From Saccharospirillaceae bacterium (GTDB taxonomy: Bacteria; Pseudomonadota; Gammaproteobacteria; Pseudomonadales; Natronospirillaceae), in the NCBI GenBank assembly GCA_007116635.1, contig SKIB01000070.1, positions 1 to 43,234 of the forward strand: 43,234 nt of DNA. Direction: 5' to 3'. Below, in pieces: positions 26,667 to 40,013 of the stretch (positions are counted from its first letter, which is position 1; every line of letters begins with the position of its first letter). The position numbers and the translations under genes are program-made. The notes under the pieces are model-generated. The model was not told the origin of the DNA and did no database searches. It saw only the letters and a program-made list of their open reading frames with translations.

Positions 26667-28931
26667 ATGAAACATCAAATGAAGCTTTTAGTAGCGGGTG
26701 TCAGCGCGGCATTCCTACTTAGTGCTTGTGGAGAGGTTGATCCTGGTGAGGGCATCCCAACTCCAAGTCCGTCAGTAACAGCTGAGCCAGGACCGTCGCA
26801 CCCAGTTGAGCCATCGCCAACTGCTGGTCCATCACCCACTGCCGAGCCATCGCCAACTGCTGGTCCATCACCCACTGCCGAGCCATCGCCAACTGCTGGT
26901 CCATCACCAACTGCTGGTCCATCACCAACTGCAGGTCCATCACCAACTGTAGATCCATCTCCAACCGGAACTCCTGGTTGTGAAGCGACTACTTGGACAG
27001 CCAATGTTGATCACAGCGACGTGACTGCAGGTCAGTTGTTTGCCCATGATGGCAAAGTTTGGGAGCTGCTCAGCACTGCCCATGTTTCAATGGAGCCAGG
27101 CTCTGCTGGTAGTCACTCTGTCTGGAAAGACGTAACTGCTACCTGTGGTGGTGCAGTGTCACCAACGCCTGAGCCAAGCCCAGAGCCAAGCCCGAGCCCA
27201 AGCCCAGAGCCAAGCCCGAGCCCAAGCCCGAGCCCAAGCCCGAGCCCGACGCCTATTGACCCAGGTGCCACATGGTGCCCAACAGGTGATAACTACAACT
27301 CTGCAGTTACCTATTCTGCTGGTGATGAAGTCATGTTCGGTGGCAATATCTACCGTGCTGGTTCATGGGTTGGTGCCAATACGCCACCAAATCCAAACCA
27401 AGACCCTGATGCGCCAAGCTGGGATCAGAATCCATGGCAGTTAGTTGGTCCTATCAATTCGGACTGGTGTGCTGGTAAAGCCATCACCGCCGACGGTCAA
27501 GAATTGCCAATGGGTTCTTGGGGCACCTTGCCAATGAGTCGTATGTTTGAGCGTTACGACATGACTGCTAACGACAAAATGGTAGGTACTTACTATCCTG
27601 AGTGGGGTATTTACAGTCGTGGTTTTGAGGTTGAGCACATCCCATTTGATGGCTTGACTCACATCTACTACGCCTTCGCCTCTGTTTGCGGTGACAACTC
27701 TACGTCCTATAACGAGGGTGCTGCTAACGGTAACGCTGGTGCAACCAACCGTGGTGCTTTCTGTCAACAAGATTTCGAAATAAACATCTATGATGACTGG
27801 GCAGCAACAGAGAAGTCCTTTATTGGTGATGCTTACGCAACGCCACTTAAGGGTCTGTTTGGTCAGTTCACTCGAGCTAAGGCTGTTCACCCGCACATCA
27901 AGATTCAGATGTCTGTAGGTGGCTGGACTCTGTCTCGTCCATTCTATGAAATGGCTGACAGCCCTGCTAAGCGTGCCATCTTTGTTGACTCTGTAAGTCG
28001 CTTCTTGCGTGATTATGTAACTACCTTTGATGGTATTGACATCGACTGGGAGTTCCCTGGTGCTGGTGGTAACGATCCAGACATGGGTTGCGCGTCTGAA
28101 GAGCTGGATTGCTTCAATCCTGATCGTCTGCGTGACGCTGCTAACTTTGCAGATTTGATGCAAGAGCTGCGTGTTGAGCTGGATGGACTGTCTGCTGAAT
28201 ACGGCAAGCACTTTGAATTGGGTGCTGCTGTGTCTCCTGATCCGGTGCGTGCTGCTGATCCTCGTTACATTGATTGGCCAAACACCATTCCTTACATGGA
28301 TTTCGTCAACGTAATGAGTTACGACTACGCCGGTGGTTGGAGTACTGAAAGCCTGGGTTACAACACTTCCATGAGCTACCCATCTTCAGGTAATCCAACT
28401 TGGAATACCAAGGGTACGGTGCAGGCCATCTTGGATGCTGGTGTGCCTCCGCACAAGGTAATCGTTGGTGTGGCTAAGTATGGTCGTGGCTGGCAGGGTG
28501 TGCATGACTGGGAAGGTGATGATCTGTTCACTGGTCGTGCTGAGGCTGCCTTCATGAATGGTAGCAACGCTTGCGGAGATGATGATTGTGAAATTATCAA
28601 CTATGTTGGCCCTAACCCAGTAGGTGCCTTTGGTATCTGGGCTCCTGGTACTGCTGACTATGGCTGGATCGAGCAAGAAGCCATGGGTGGTCCTAACGGT
28701 ACTGGCATCAATGGTTGGGAATTTGTTTACGATGCTGAATACGGCGGTGCCTATGTATGGCATGCTGAGAAAGGCATGTTGCTAGGCTTCGACAGCCGTG
28801 AAACCATTATGGATAAGGGTCGTTATGTTGATGAGCTTGGTCTGGGTGGTTTGTTCTCTTGGGAGATCACAGGCGACACAGGTACTCTGACTAACGCTAT
28901 GAATGAAGCGATGGGCAAACCACGCAAGTAA
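26667..28931 (+). CDS. Lipoprotein GH18 chitinase with two carbohydrate-binding modules
   Basis: A 754-residue secreted glycoside hydrolase family 18 protein that should cleave beta-1,4 bonds in chitin. A lipobox ending LLSAC puts the lipidated cysteine at 21. A Pro/Ser/Thr linker (~44-100) leads to a small module at ~105-160, a second PSPSPEP linker (~165-198), then a CBM5/12-like module at ~204-268 with aromatic residues typical of chitin binding. The catalytic barrel follows from ~303: SVGGW at 416-420, the DGIDIDWE motif at 455-462 with catalytic Glu462, and MSYDY at 550-554. It is probably tethered to the outer membrane and faces outward. Codon use is rich in GGT/CGT/GCT, unlike many neighbours. 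A strong terminator follows. Confidence 0.93.
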   Translation: MKHQMKLLVAGVSAAFLLSACGEVDPGEGIPTPSPSVTAEPGPSHPVEPSPTAGPSPTAEPSPTAGPSPTAEPSPTAGPSPTAGPSPTAGPSPTVDPSPTGTPGCEATTWTANVDHSDVTAGQLFAHDGKVWELLSTAHVSMEPGSAGSHSVWKDVTATCGGAVSPTPEPSPEPSPSPSPEPSPSPSPSPSPSPTPIDPGATWCPTGDNYNSAVTYSAGDEVMFGGNIYRAGSWVGANTPPNPNQDPDAPSWDQNPWQLVGPINSDWCAGKAITADGQELPMGSWGTLPMSRMFERYDMTANDKMVGTYYPEWGIYSRGFEVEHIPFDGLTHIYYAFASVCGDNSTSYNEGAANGNAGATNRGAFCQQDFEINIYDDWAATEKSFIGDAYATPLKGLFGQFTRAKAVHPHIKIQMSVGGWTLSRPFYEMADSPAKRAIFVDSVSRFLRDYVTTFDGIDIDWEFPGAGGNDPDMGCASEELDCFNPDRLRDAANFADLMQELRVELDGLSAEYGKHFELGAAVSPDPVRAADPRYIDWPNTIPYMDFVNVMSYDYAGGWSTESLGYNTSMSYPSSGNPTWNTKGTVQAILDAGVPPHKVIVGVAKYGRGWQGVHDWEGDDLFTGRAEAAFMNGSNACGDDDCEIINYVGPNPVGAFGIWAPGTADYGWIEQEAMGGPNGTGINGWEFVYDAEYGGAYVWHAEKGMLLGFDSRETIMDKGRYVDELGLGGLFSWEITGDTGTLTNAMNEAMGKPRK
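26811..26972 (+). repeat. 18-bp coding minisatellite in the chitinase linker, nine units
   Basis: Nine units start every 18 bp from 26811 to 26955, form CCATCRCCAACTGCTGGT with variants. Each encodes PSPTAG or PSPTAE. Units 1-2 and 3-4 are an exact 36-bp duplication, implying recent expansion. Confidence 0.9.
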
Positions 28932-37492: not shown

Positions 37493-38257
37493 TCAGGGCA
37501 AGGTTTGGCTAAATTCCAAGCTTTGCCCGTCACTGGTTTGCCATAGCAAAGCCAATTCATCCTGACTACTGCCTGTTATTTGCATTTGCAAGAAGGGATT
37601 GGCACTGACCGCACCGTGCAAGCGTACATCCATTAGTGGCTCACCATTAAGGCTCAGGCTGAGTTGTTCCACAATGCGCCTTGGCACCAGCTCACCATCT
37701 GGCCCCTGGCGCAGGCCAGTGTCCATGGGGTGATTGATTAAAGTGCGTACCTGATACTGGCCGGGCGCGCCGTCAATGGCACGACTGATGACCCTAGGGT
37801 TGGTCATGCCCTGAGTGTCTAGACTGTCTAGGGGTACTAAACAACCACTGGCCAGAACCTCTATTGCCGCTTGCTGTACAAACCATTCACCCGTTTGACT
37901 CTGGCTGAGCAACCAAAGAGATTGGCTTTGATCGATGCGAATGCGGCTGTGTAGGTCAAGGCTGGCTTGCGGCTGATGCAGCTGCCATTCCAACACCTCG
38001 GCATTGGGGTTGCCATCGGCAAAGAGTAATAGCCGGGTTAACCAATCTTCTGGCTCAGCCCCAGACCAGCCAGGGCCTTGAATGCTAACGGGCACTGCTG
38101 CACCGTCCTCAACAAAAACCGGAAGATTCAAGGTCAGCTCACTGGCCTGTGGTTCTGTTCCTTGCAGTAATTGCTCAATGGCTGGAATTTGCTGCCAGCC
38201 AGCTAGGCTCCAACCACCGGCCATGCAGCAGGCGAATAACAGGGGTCGTATGTTCAT
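37493..38257 (-). CDS. SoxYZ fusion, sulfur-carrier protein
   Basis: A 254-residue secreted protein that fuses SoxY-like and SoxZ-like modules. A signal peptide spans ~1-20. The SoxY part (~30-145) includes LNLPVFVEDGAAVPVSI and ends near Cys139 in EVLASGCLVP. The SoxZ part (~153-254) has TLINHPMDTG (172-181), PRRIVEQ and SANPFL (218-223), as in SoxZ. In canonical SoxY the carrier cysteine is in a C-terminal GGCGG arm; here it is internal and the glycines are mostly lost. It lies 57 bp downstream of fccB, so probably in the fcc operon. The ATG at 38257 follows GGAG; a TTG six codons earlier is rejected. Fused SoxYZ-like carriers are known; pairing with FccAB suggests sulfide-derived sulfur binding. 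Confidence 0.82.
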   Translation of the reverse strand: MNIRPLLFACCMAGGWSLAGWQQIPAIEQLLQGTEPQASELTLNLPVFVEDGAAVPVSIQGPGWSGAEPEDWLTRLLLFADGNPNAEVLEWQLHQPQASLDLHSRIRIDQSQSLWLLSQSQTGEWFVQQAAIEVLASGCLVPLDSLDTQGMTNPRVISRAIDGAPGQYQVRTLINHPMDTGLRQGPDGELVPRRIVEQLSLSLNGEPLMDVRLHGAVSANPFLQMQITGSSQDELALLWQTSDGQSLEFSQTLP

Positions 38258-38278
38258 CTTTATGACTCCAAACAATAA

Positions 38279-38295
38279 GGGGCCCTTTAGGCCCC
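38279..38295 (-). promoter_or_regulatory. Intercistronic hairpin between fccB and soxYZ
   Basis: GGGGCC (38279-38284) and GGCCCC (38290-38295), loop CTTTA. On the minus strand it is followed by TTATTGTTT, a broken T-run, so partial termination or mRNA stabilisation between fccB and the SoxYZ gene is possible. Confidence 0.55.
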
Positions 38296-38314
38296 AAAAC
38301 AGTATAAAGCTTAG

Positions 38315-39616
38315 TTATGCCTTAGTTCCCCATACGTCTTGGCAAATGGCATTGTACCAACGGTGCGCGTTTTGCGCTTCGCTACGGCGTAGGGCATCAT
38401 CCGCTTCTCTTGGGCTTAGGCCACCTGAGCCAGGCACTTCTTGTAAATTGCCCTCAGCGTCCAGGTTATAAATACCGGCCACCGAAATGCCATAGTCAGG
38501 TGCCACTAGGCTGTAGCAGGTATTGGTAAAGAAAGGGCTTGGCGCTGGAATGCCGGCAAAAGAAGCGACAATGGCAGCAGCAGCGACCTTGGCTTGCGAA
38601 TTGGCACAGAAGCCTGACTTGGGCATGGGCGCGGCAATGGTGGCATCGCCCACCACATAGACATGTTCAGCCAGTTCGGCTTCAAAGCTGTGAGGCTTAA
38701 CCGGAACCCAGCCACTGGCATTGGTTAGGCCTGCTTGGCGAGCAATGGCGCCTGCTTGCTGTGGGGGAATCACATTAAGCACATCCGCTTTGTGTATGGT
38801 GCCGAACTCGGTTTCCACTTCTTTGTTGGCGGCGTCAACCCGTACTACCTTGCCATCGTTGGACAGGCTGATCCATTCGATCATGCCTGGGTAGTGTTTT
38901 TGCCAGCCGTCGGTAAACAACCCCTGCTTACTGAAGGCGTCTTTGGCATCCAAAATGACGATTCGGCTATTGGGTTTGTGCTCTTTGAAGTAATGCGCAA
39001 TCAGGCTTACCCGCTCGTAGGGGCCAGGCGGGCAACGGTAGGGATTGGGCGGCGCTACCATGACAAAGAGGCCGCCGTCTGGCATGGCTTCCAGTTGCTG
39101 GCGTAAAATTTTGGTTTGCTCTCCGGCCTGCCAGGCATGGGGTGCCAATTGTGCCGCCTGCTCATCGTAGCCTGCGATGCTGTCGTAGCGCATGTCGATG
39201 CCTGGTGACAGTACCAAGCGGTCGTAACTCAATTGTTCGCCATTGGCCAGGGTCACCTGCCGGCCTTGAGTGTCGATGGCGCTGGCCAGGCTATGGATTA
39301 CCTGTACGCCCAGATCGTTTTTCAACTCGTCGTAATTGTGGGCAATCTGATCCCATTCGCGGATGCCGCCCAGGTAAAGATTGCTGAATGGGCAGGTGTA
39401 AAAGGTTTCATTAGGTTCAACCAGGGTCACTGCTAACTCAGGATTGAGCAGCTTGAGGTATTTGGCGGCGGTTGCGCCACCAAAGCCACCACCAACCACC
39501 ACCACATGGCCAAGGGGCTGCTTGGCCTCTGTACTGGCAAGGGCTAGGGGCAAGCTGGATAGGGCGCCTAGTGAACCGGCAGCTTGCAGTAGACCACGAC
39601 GGGAAATATTAGTCAT
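38315..39616 (-). CDS. fccB: Flavocytochrome c sulfide dehydrogenase, flavoprotein subunit
   Basis: A 433-residue FAD protein with a twin-arginine signal (SRRGLLQ, residues 5-11). The dinucleotide motif VVVVGGGFGG is at 38-47. Cys75 in FYTCPFSNL matches the family's covalent FAD-linking position, and Cys195 (NPYRCPPGPYER) with Cys367 (FTNTCYSLV) form the redox-active pair. The enzyme oxidises sulfide in the periplasm and passes electrons to the cytochrome subunit. It overlaps fccA by one base (TAATG). Similar proteins include SoxF, and the adjacent SoxYZ fusion makes SoxF-like use possible. Confidence 0.93.
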   Translation of the reverse strand: MTNISRRGLLQAAGSLGALSSLPLALASTEAKQPLGHVVVVGGGFGGATAAKYLKLLNPELAVTLVEPNETFYTCPFSNLYLGGIREWDQIAHNYDELKNDLGVQVIHSLASAIDTQGRQVTLANGEQLSYDRLVLSPGIDMRYDSIAGYDEQAAQLAPHAWQAGEQTKILRQQLEAMPDGGLFVMVAPPNPYRCPPGPYERVSLIAHYFKEHKPNSRIVILDAKDAFSKQGLFTDGWQKHYPGMIEWISLSNDGKVVRVDAANKEVETEFGTIHKADVLNVIPPQQAGAIARQAGLTNASGWVPVKPHSFEAELAEHVYVVGDATIAAPMPKSGFCANSQAKVAAAAIVASFAGIPAPSPFFTNTCYSLVAPDYGISVAGIYNLDAEGNLQEVPGSGGLSPREADDALRRSEAQNAHRWYNAICQDVWGTKA

Positions 39617-39936
39617 TATTCGGCTCCTATGGCATCGGCATTGGTCAGGAACAGGGCGATCAGTGCCAGTTCTTCGTCACTGTAGCCTCTGGTAATACGG
39701 CCCATGACCGTGCTGTTGACCCTGTCGTGCTTAAAGGCCAGCAACTGTTCGGTTAGGGCATCCGTAGCCCGTAGCTGAAAATTGCTCAGATTGCCATTGG
39801 TGCCATGGCAGCCAGCGCAGCCGCCGGCCAAGACCGCTGCTTGCAGTCTTGCGCTTAGGGCGTCATTGGTTAGCTCGGTTTCTGCTGCTAGCGACAGGCC
39901 GCTAGCCAAAGCCAAAGTCATGATCAGGGATTTCAT
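39616..39936 (-). CDS. fccA: Cytochrome c subunit of flavocytochrome c sulfide dehydrogenase
   Basis: A 106-residue class I c-type cytochrome with a signal peptide (~1-18), one heme motif CAGCH at residues 40-44, and probable distal ligand Met78 in STVMGRI. It accepts electrons from FccB and would pass them to the respiratory chain. Known FccA subunits are mono- or diheme; this is the small monoheme form (like SoxE). The ATG at 39936 follows AGGA by 6 nt; an ATG ten codons earlier overlaps the candidate FNR-like box and is rejected. Confidence 0.9.
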   Translation of the reverse strand: MKSLIMTLALASGLSLAAETELTNDALSARLQAAVLAGGCAGCHGTNGNLSNFQLRATDALTEQLLAFKHDRVNSTVMGRITRGYSDEELALIALFLTNADAIGAE

Positions 39937-39952: not shown

Positions 39953-39966
39953 TTGATGTAAGTCAA
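39953..39966. promoter_or_regulatory. FNR/Anr-like box before fccA, one mismatch
   Basis: On the minus strand it reads TTGACTTACATCAA, matching TTGAT-N4-ATCAA at 9 of 10 positions. Its centre is 23 bp upstream of the fccA ATG. A minus-strand TAAAAT-like -10 lies immediately upstream, so bound regulator would cover the transcription start. Confidence 0.5.
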
Positions 39967-39990
39967 TTTTAGACCCAGTTGTCTTGCTTG

Positions 39991-40013
39991 TCTAAGATCC
40001 CTTTTGTCTTAGA
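39991..40013. promoter_or_regulatory. Inverted repeat upstream of fccA
   Basis: TCTAAGA (39991-39997) and TCTTAGA (40007-40013) are exact inverted 7-mers separated by 9 bp, a size and spacing usual for dimeric regulator sites. Confidence 0.5.

Follow-up and report, generated by a model that had tools for sequence, protein, structure and literature searches.

A trio of adjoining minus-strand genes, fccA, fccB and a fused soxY-soxZ, was found in contig SKIB01000070.1 of a Saccharospirillaceae bacterium (GCA_007116635.1, genome 97% complete). The whole stretch of 43,234 nt that was analysed is called the window below. The trio is fairly probably a slimmed-down version of a conserved module for sulfide oxidation, in which a flavocytochrome c sulfide dehydrogenase (FCSD, here FccAB) would pass the sulfur of sulfide to the fused SoxYZ carrier, and from which a SoxT-like transporter has been lost. 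An earlier note on this DNA had proposed a minimal FccAB-SoxYZ cluster. fccAB and the fused carrier do stand as one unit, but the usual fourth gene, encoding a SoxT/TsuA-like transporter, had been overlooked.

Conservation of the module was examined in related loci. A contig scan with five fusions gave 332 loci, and the best 80 were analysed; the ranking was by likeness to the queries, so the resulting count is biased. The order fccA-fccB-yedE/SoxT-soxYZ on one strand was observed in 67 of the 80 loci by mapping of reference proteins. The genomes of three of these (L035, L040 and L048) had also contributed to the query alignment, and one (L049) has the four-gene order with a 2.8-kb gap after fccB. 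Among the remaining 13 loci, the contig ends before fccA (L029, L082), before fccB (L073) or before everything (L077), two Bauldia loci (L092, L095) have no transporter and one locus (L085) has an unfused SoxY. The last six, all from Paracoccaceae (L096-L101), have fccAB on the opposite strand; their SoxYZ fusions carry a GACE motif, are divergent from the fccBA pair and represent a second, distant fusion type near FCSD. Bauldia sp. TGS_PRO15 was found to have two module copies, one with the transporter (L090) and one without (L095). Judged by their titles, the 67 loci belong to Halomonas and its segregates, Nitrincola, Marinospirillum, Marinobacter, Thiopseudomonas and Ectothiorhodospiraceae, to Opitutales and other Verrucomicrobiota, to Kiritimatiellae and to several Alpha- and Betaproteobacteria. 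Many of the bearers are salt- or alkali-loving, as judged by names. Within the window's own family, a full-length fusion was found in four of 21 other genomes, all four with the four-gene order. In midpoint-rooted trees of both SoxYZ and FccB, rows from Verrucomicrobiota and Kiritimatiellota nest within Pseudomonadota beside Halorhodospira, and this nesting suggests transfer of the module between phyla. Both trees left out L035, L040 and L048, whose contigs are already represented by L014, L016 and L015, as well as the unfused L085, and the FccB tree was additionally built without L073 and L077, which have no FccB in reach.

A less biased count was obtained from 390 genomes sampled evenly from the window's order, with at most six candidates scored per genome and matches taken at E<=1e-15. 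FCSD was present in 21 of these genomes. High-scoring single-frame fusions (197-386 bits) were found in ten genomes, and in all ten FCSD_central was located 0.5-1.7 kb away; the linkage of FCSD and fused soxYZ is well above chance. Eight low-scoring single-frame fusions (58.8-76.0 bits) all occurred in genomes without any FCSD hit. Unfused soxY and soxZ genes were observed in G059, G168, G266, G307 and G323, with soxY about 0.8-0.95 kb from FCSD_central, and in the four of these genomes that were inspected a SoxA-like gene was seen by eye after soxZ. A recurrent cluster of this kind, fccA-fccB-cytochrome c-soxY-soxZ-SoxA-like (the last by eye), was observed at L147 (5199-8842), L148 (5079-8814) and L149 (4499-8089), each time beside genes of molybdenum-type aldehyde/xanthine dehydrogenases (by eye). 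A related unfused cluster is present at L150, where fccA and the cytochrome were not seen.

The transporter model built from the relatives matched between fccB and soxYZ in eight of the ten fusion genomes of the order survey. The remaining two, the window's genome and G250, had no match to it in any part of the genome (E<=1e-10). The model matched 11 of the 21 FCSD genomes, three of these matches being unlinked and weaker (196-283 bits). For one relative tested, the module transporter scored 193.5 bits with Sulf_transp (cut-off 27) and 89.3 bits with NCBIfam TsuA (cut-off 400). Cysteines 28, 102 and 308 of the transporter did not vary among the 16 aligned rows, and they correspond to the cysteines of Spirochaeta thermophila TsuA. 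The homologous three cysteines are reported to be essential in SoxT1B, in a paper that also discusses sulfur passage from SoxYZ through SoxT (PMC11582611); it makes no mention of fcc, flavocytochrome or FCSD, and SoxF occurs in it twice. The middle gene of the relatives thus resembles the SoxT/TsuA (YeeE/YedE) importers in its Sulf_transp domain and three invariant cysteines, whereas the window's genome has no match. FccB of the window clusters in its tree with FccB from two transporter-bearing genomes of the same family (support 99/96). Since the tree places the window with genomes that keep the transporter, loss of the SoxT-like transporter in the window's lineage appears to be the simplest account.

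A second member of the order without the transporter is L146 (G250:C24), in which fccB and soxYZ are nearly adjacent and no fccA match was found beside fccB. The end branches of the window (1.95) and G250 (1.58) are the longest among FCSD-linked fusions in the SoxYZ tree. Their branches in the FccB tree are also long (0.65 and 1.06) and similar ratios occur elsewhere (0.61 versus 0.20 for L066), and a carrier-specific speed-up after transporter loss was dropped as an explanation. Distant Sulf_transp proteins of other kinds do occur in the window's genome. The only full-length one, of 405 aa and YedE/FdhT-like, is encoded on contig C137, directly after a rhodanese that has two domains and, by eye, a signal peptide (C137:4329-6461, L102). 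The longest alignment of this YedE-type protein with a module transporter had 23.5% identity over 293 residues. Judged from sequence, the rhodanese-YedE pair could be a separate sulfur-import pair and a candidate stand-in for the SoxT-like protein.

The identity of the two Fcc subunits was supported by profile and structure matches. fccB (38315-39616, minus strand) encodes the 433-aa flavin adenine dinucleotide subunit of FCSD, with Pfam scores of 181.2 bits for FCSD_central (cut-off 27) and 97.8 bits for FCSD-flav_bind (cut-off 26). Its closest solved structures were 5n1t, 1fcd and 3vrd, matched over the full length (E 3.2e-147 to 5n1t_A). Its residues C195 and C367 are the aligned counterparts of positions 161 and 337 in chain 1fcd_A, the cysteine pair of the redox disulfide. 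The protein starts with SRR, twin-arginine-like by eye; Pfam TAT_signal scored 13.5 bits, below the cut-off of 22.7. fccA (39616-39936, minus strand) encodes the cytochrome subunit, a monoheme protein of c type and 106 aa; it has a signal peptide by eye and a single CxxCH motif, CAGCH. Its Pfam Cytochrom_C score of 20.3 bits was slightly below the cut-off of 21.3, and a counterpart is found at the same position in 67 of the 80 related loci. The overlap of fccA and fccB at TAATG described in the earlier note was seen, with one base in common between the stop codon of fccA and the start codon of fccB. By these matches, FccA and FccB are assigned as a flavocytochrome c sulfide dehydrogenase. They resemble the FccAB proteins of known structure (PDB 1fcd, 3vrd, 5n1t) in the full-length FccB, the aligned cysteine pair and the cytochrome subunit in front. 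The flavocytochrome c sulfide dehydrogenase of Allochromatium vinosum has a diheme cytochrome subunit, whereas FccA in the window is short and monoheme, and the gene partner here is the fused SoxYZ.

The fused soxYZ gene (37493-38257, minus strand) follows fccB after 57 bases and encodes a 254-aa protein with an N-terminal signal peptide by eye. SoxY (residues 30-139, 37841-38170; 63.7 bits, cut-off 28.4) and SoxZ (residues 168-248, 37514-37756; 74.1 bits, cut-off 25) were identified in one frame with Pfam. Apart from Cys10 and Cys11 in the signal region, the only cysteine is Cys139 (codon 37841-37843), assigned as the carrier cysteine in ASGCL by conservation and structural alignment, and it is the final residue of the SoxY profile match. 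An AlphaFold2 model of the fusion had a mean predicted local distance difference test score (pLDDT) of 88.3 and a predicted template modelling score of 0.84. The two halves of the model matched the SoxY and SoxZ structures (PDB 2ox5, 2oxg, 2oxh), the chains being matched singly. A viral library search gave only TM-scores below 0.3 by query length among the 50 matches listed. The structural alignment with Paracoccus pantotrophus SoxY (2oxh_D) extends as far as residue 139 of the model and residue 110 of the chain, and cysteine 110 is described as the sulfur-carrying residue of SoxY (PMC5371076). Because the SoxY profile match and the structural alignment (139/110) both end there, Cys139 is the usual SoxY arm cysteine and not a new site; it looks internal because SoxZ continues in the same chain. 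Residues 141-150 of the model have a mean pLDDT of 59, and this low confidence after Cys139 fits a flexible linker that may replace the free arm.

All 82 aligned carriers, including six of the distant Paracoccaceae type, have the carrier cysteine; L035, L040, L048 and L085 were left out of this conservation count. There are 72 other fusions on the same branch as the window, and fccB was seen beside 70 of them, the contigs of L073 and L077 ending before fccB (L077 also before the transporter). The two residues preceding the cysteine in these 72 fusions are SG (65), GG (4) or NG, AG and TG (one each), and the residue following it is L in 65. In this alignment [S/G]GC is the normal motif of the fused carrier family. 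The earlier note had described the cysteine as internal, in ASGCL and without a terminal GGCGG arm, and had concluded that sulfur binding may work differently. The motif and position were found as described; a different binding mode was not supported, as the cysteine has the usual arm position and a family-typical motif. The fusion scored 47.7 bits with TIGR04488, the SoxY equivalog (cut-off 125), and together with the motif ASGCL in place of a terminal GGCGG this indicates that it is not a true thiosulfate SoxY. It is like the SoxYZ of the Sox system (PDB 2ox5, 2oxg, 2oxh) in both domains and in the position of the arm cysteine, and differs in being one chain, in having SGCL within the chain instead of a terminal GGCGG and in belonging to a genome without SoxB over cut-off.

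Four positions ahead of the cysteine, 71 of the 72 other carriers have a threonine, which is absent in the window, G250 and two Bauldia rows, all of them transporter-less (Fisher p 4e-6 by rows and 6e-5 for three lineages, uncorrected for 42 columns). Threonine loss as a signature of transporter-less carriers was retained only as a hint. The exception, L084, keeps the transporter, the Bauldia rows possibly reflect a one-residue shift, and the threonine is kept in the six Paracoccaceae fusions, for which the yedE queries detected no transporter within the stretch retrieved.

The earlier note had reported no SoxAX, SoxB or SoxCD genes nearby, in agreement with a reading of the window's open reading frames by eye; SoxC, SoxD and SoxX were not searched genome-wide. 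It had also named a complete sox cluster elsewhere as evidence against its proposal, and had called for a search for other sox, sqr and pdo genes. A single SoxY was found genome-wide and no SoxB over cut-off, so that no such cluster was seen, while SQR and a persulfide dioxygenase (PDO)-like gene are present. The best SoxB match had 61.8 bits against a cut-off of 550, and in 14 control genomes ten matches were below the cut-off and none above. No SoxA match was found genome-wide, which is weak evidence since the control genomes were silent too. DsrA also gave no match genome-wide, its profile matching, below cut-off, in eight of the 14 controls. The closest solved structures of the SQR, which is encoded elsewhere in the genome, are mitochondrial SQR entries, and its twin-arginine signal scored over the Pfam cut-off. 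The PDO-like protein is a metallo-beta-lactamase (MBL) protein. Its best NCBIfam match was Blh, a sulfur transferase/dioxygenase, with 389.8 bits against a cut-off of 625 and coverage of positions 142-422 in a profile of 423, and the solved ETHE1 persulfide dioxygenase (99.6 bits) ranked below five metallo-beta-lactamase-type entries; it is called only PDO-like for these two reasons. Two TusA-like genes are also present elsewhere in the genome.

From these data a route of sulfide oxidation can be proposed. FccAB would oxidise HS- in the periplasm, and its electrons would reach the cytochrome c pool by way of FccA. The sulfur atom would be transferred in persulfide or polysulfide form to the fused carrier, at Cys139. 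The next step in most relatives would be its passage through SoxT from the carrier into the cytoplasm. The window species appears to have lost SoxT, and its carrier may deliver to another acceptor, the candidate being the C137 rhodanese-YedE pair with TusA and the PDO-like protein inside; alternatively, the sulfur would be released in the periplasm. Direct transfer from FccB to SoxYZ is inferred from gene order, and is a natural guess because the linkage of fccB and soxYZ is strong and widely conserved. Persulfurated SoxYZ also makes sense chemically: SoxYZ that had been treated with sulfide, and that had one or more of the forms with one to four sulfurs, was active (PMC5336275). In a Cupriavidus soxCD deletion with thiosulfate, pdo genes, yeeE and yedE were induced together (PMC9959259). 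A more far-reaching proposal is a sulfide-specific use of SoxYZ independent of SoxAX and SoxB, in which FccAB loads a one-chain SoxYZ that mostly docks on a three-cysteine SoxT channel, with spread across phyla and a window form working channel-free. This is regarded as possible, but somewhat doubtful.

Several observations weigh against the proposed function of the trio. Six of the 21 FCSD genomes (G079, G134, G202, G234, G295 and G386) have no SoxY/SoxZ match within 2 kb at E<=1e-15, so SoxYZ is not required by every FCSD. The module is patchy in the window's own family, and both the PDO-like gene and the rhodanese-YedE pair are unlinked to it. The window carrier is changed at ten of 42 strongly conserved positions, compared with at most seven in the 72 other carriers and with six, eight and eight in three other transporter-less ones. 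Residues 133-137 (37847-37861) before the cysteine read EVLAS, where most relatives read RVTVS or similar. The divergent carrier may therefore be decaying, and it could be a remnant that became jobless with the loss of the transporter and is drifting, FccAB alone releasing polysulfide or sulfur. The changed positions, the end branch of 1.95, the longest in the SoxYZ tree, and the failure to find the transporter in the genome (E<=1e-10) would agree with such a fate. However, the frame is open, the fold model is good, invariant residues such as Cys139 and HPM have been retained, and the window's FccB branch is also long (0.65), so that the speed-up is not specific to the carrier. A remnant is accordingly considered unlikely. 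Paracoccus SoxF/SoxE offers a precedent for another role of SoxYZ, as an FccB-like flavoprotein is encoded there with a SoxYZ carrier within a complete sox cluster; the window is alike in these two components and here lacks a SoxB over cut-off. By analogy, and as FCSD pairs with both fused and unfused SoxYZ, the carrier could be a helper of FccAB, e.g. a redox partner or polysulfide buffer, and not the main sulfur acceptor. soxF is listed as an H2S oxidase (PMC9959259). The conserved transporter between fccB and soxYZ nevertheless fits a carrier that hands sulfur on, and a helper role also seems rather improbable.

The SoxY and SoxZ domains are real by Pfam, as would be expected of an ordinary thiosulfate Sox pathway with its other genes elsewhere. 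Against this stand the single SoxY in a 97% complete genome, SoxB below cut-off (as in every control) and the lack of a SoxA match, though the controls were silent for SoxA, and such a pathway is judged very unlikely. Least probable of all is that the fusion is a quinoprotein-associated SoxYZ-like carrier, the type found beside pyrroloquinoline quinone (PQQ) alcohol dehydrogenases and SoxH. TIGR04557, the model of this type, was the best NCBIfam match both for the window carrier (108.4 bits) and for two relatives tested (127.3 and 106.7 bits), but all three scores were under the cut-off of 140. Three of the eight low-scoring fusions of the order survey were inspected; all three have, by eye, PQQ dehydrogenases and a metallohydrolase of SoxH-like type as neighbours, and their motif is GGGCT instead of [S/G]GCL. 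The low-scoring GGGCT fusions form their own branch in the SoxYZ tree, and no PQQ dehydrogenase or SoxH-like neighbours were seen on reading the window's open reading frames. Fusion types tied to alcohol dehydrogenases have been described (PMC11237559, PMC12997753), and the low-scoring fusions match these types in view of their neighbours and their GGGCT motif. The window carrier is like the quinoprotein-associated type (TIGR04557; SoxYZ-S2/S4, PMC11237559) as a SoxY-SoxZ fusion, whereas its partner genes, motif and tree position differ. The preferred explanation is that of a streamlined module in which FccAB would load the fused carrier.

The individual proteins are of known kinds, and the interesting part is the conserved four-gene set and its route. 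The open-licence papers retrieved dealt with SoxT, with SoxYZ fusions close to alcohol dehydrogenases and with the contexts of fccAB. No description of an fccAB-SoxT-soxYZ module was found among them, which is weak evidence of novelty; excerpts from PMC6548844, PMC11582611, PMC11237559, PMC6382920, PMC10568851, PMC6704655, PMC9959259, PMC5371076, PMC5336275 and PMC12997753 do not describe it. For Methylophaga, two soxYZ fusions without soxAB were reported, with fccB under a different locus tag (PMC6548844), and a Halomonas growing with thiosulfate had no annotated Sox genes (PMC10568851). Two questions of sulfur biochemistry are touched by the module, i.e. the fate of FCSD-made sulfur and how SoxYZ sulfur reaches the cytoplasm, the latter transfer being described as 'by unknown means' (PMC11582611). 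A compact, recurring cluster that joins FCSD with a SoxT-like channel and a one-chain SoxYZ is a natural three-part system for testing both, and its bearers include culturable Halomonas, Nitrincola and Thiopseudomonas. The window species, without the channel, is a natural test of the channel's necessity. The module suggests a simple sulfide-handling route that is now testable.

The hairpin that the earlier note had placed between fccB and soxYZ is present (38279-38295, minus strand, 7 bp, terminator-like) but no better than chance; the count of terminator-like sites was one, below the 3.5 expected from shuffled sequence, the folding z-score was -1.94, and the hairpin was dropped as a meaningful feature. 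A promoter-like site 5' of fccA (39966-39994, minus strand) is a consensus match only, with one found against 1.6 expected. A pirin-like gene (by eye) was observed downstream of the module in three genomes of the same family, at L013 (4284-5174), L015 (8169-9050) and L016 (6130-7008). The genome also encodes two chitinase-like proteins, of glycoside hydrolase family 18 type by eye, at 26667-28931 of the window and at L102 151-2487. The former contains a long PSPTAG repeat rich in proline, and the two proteins suggest a chitin degrader.

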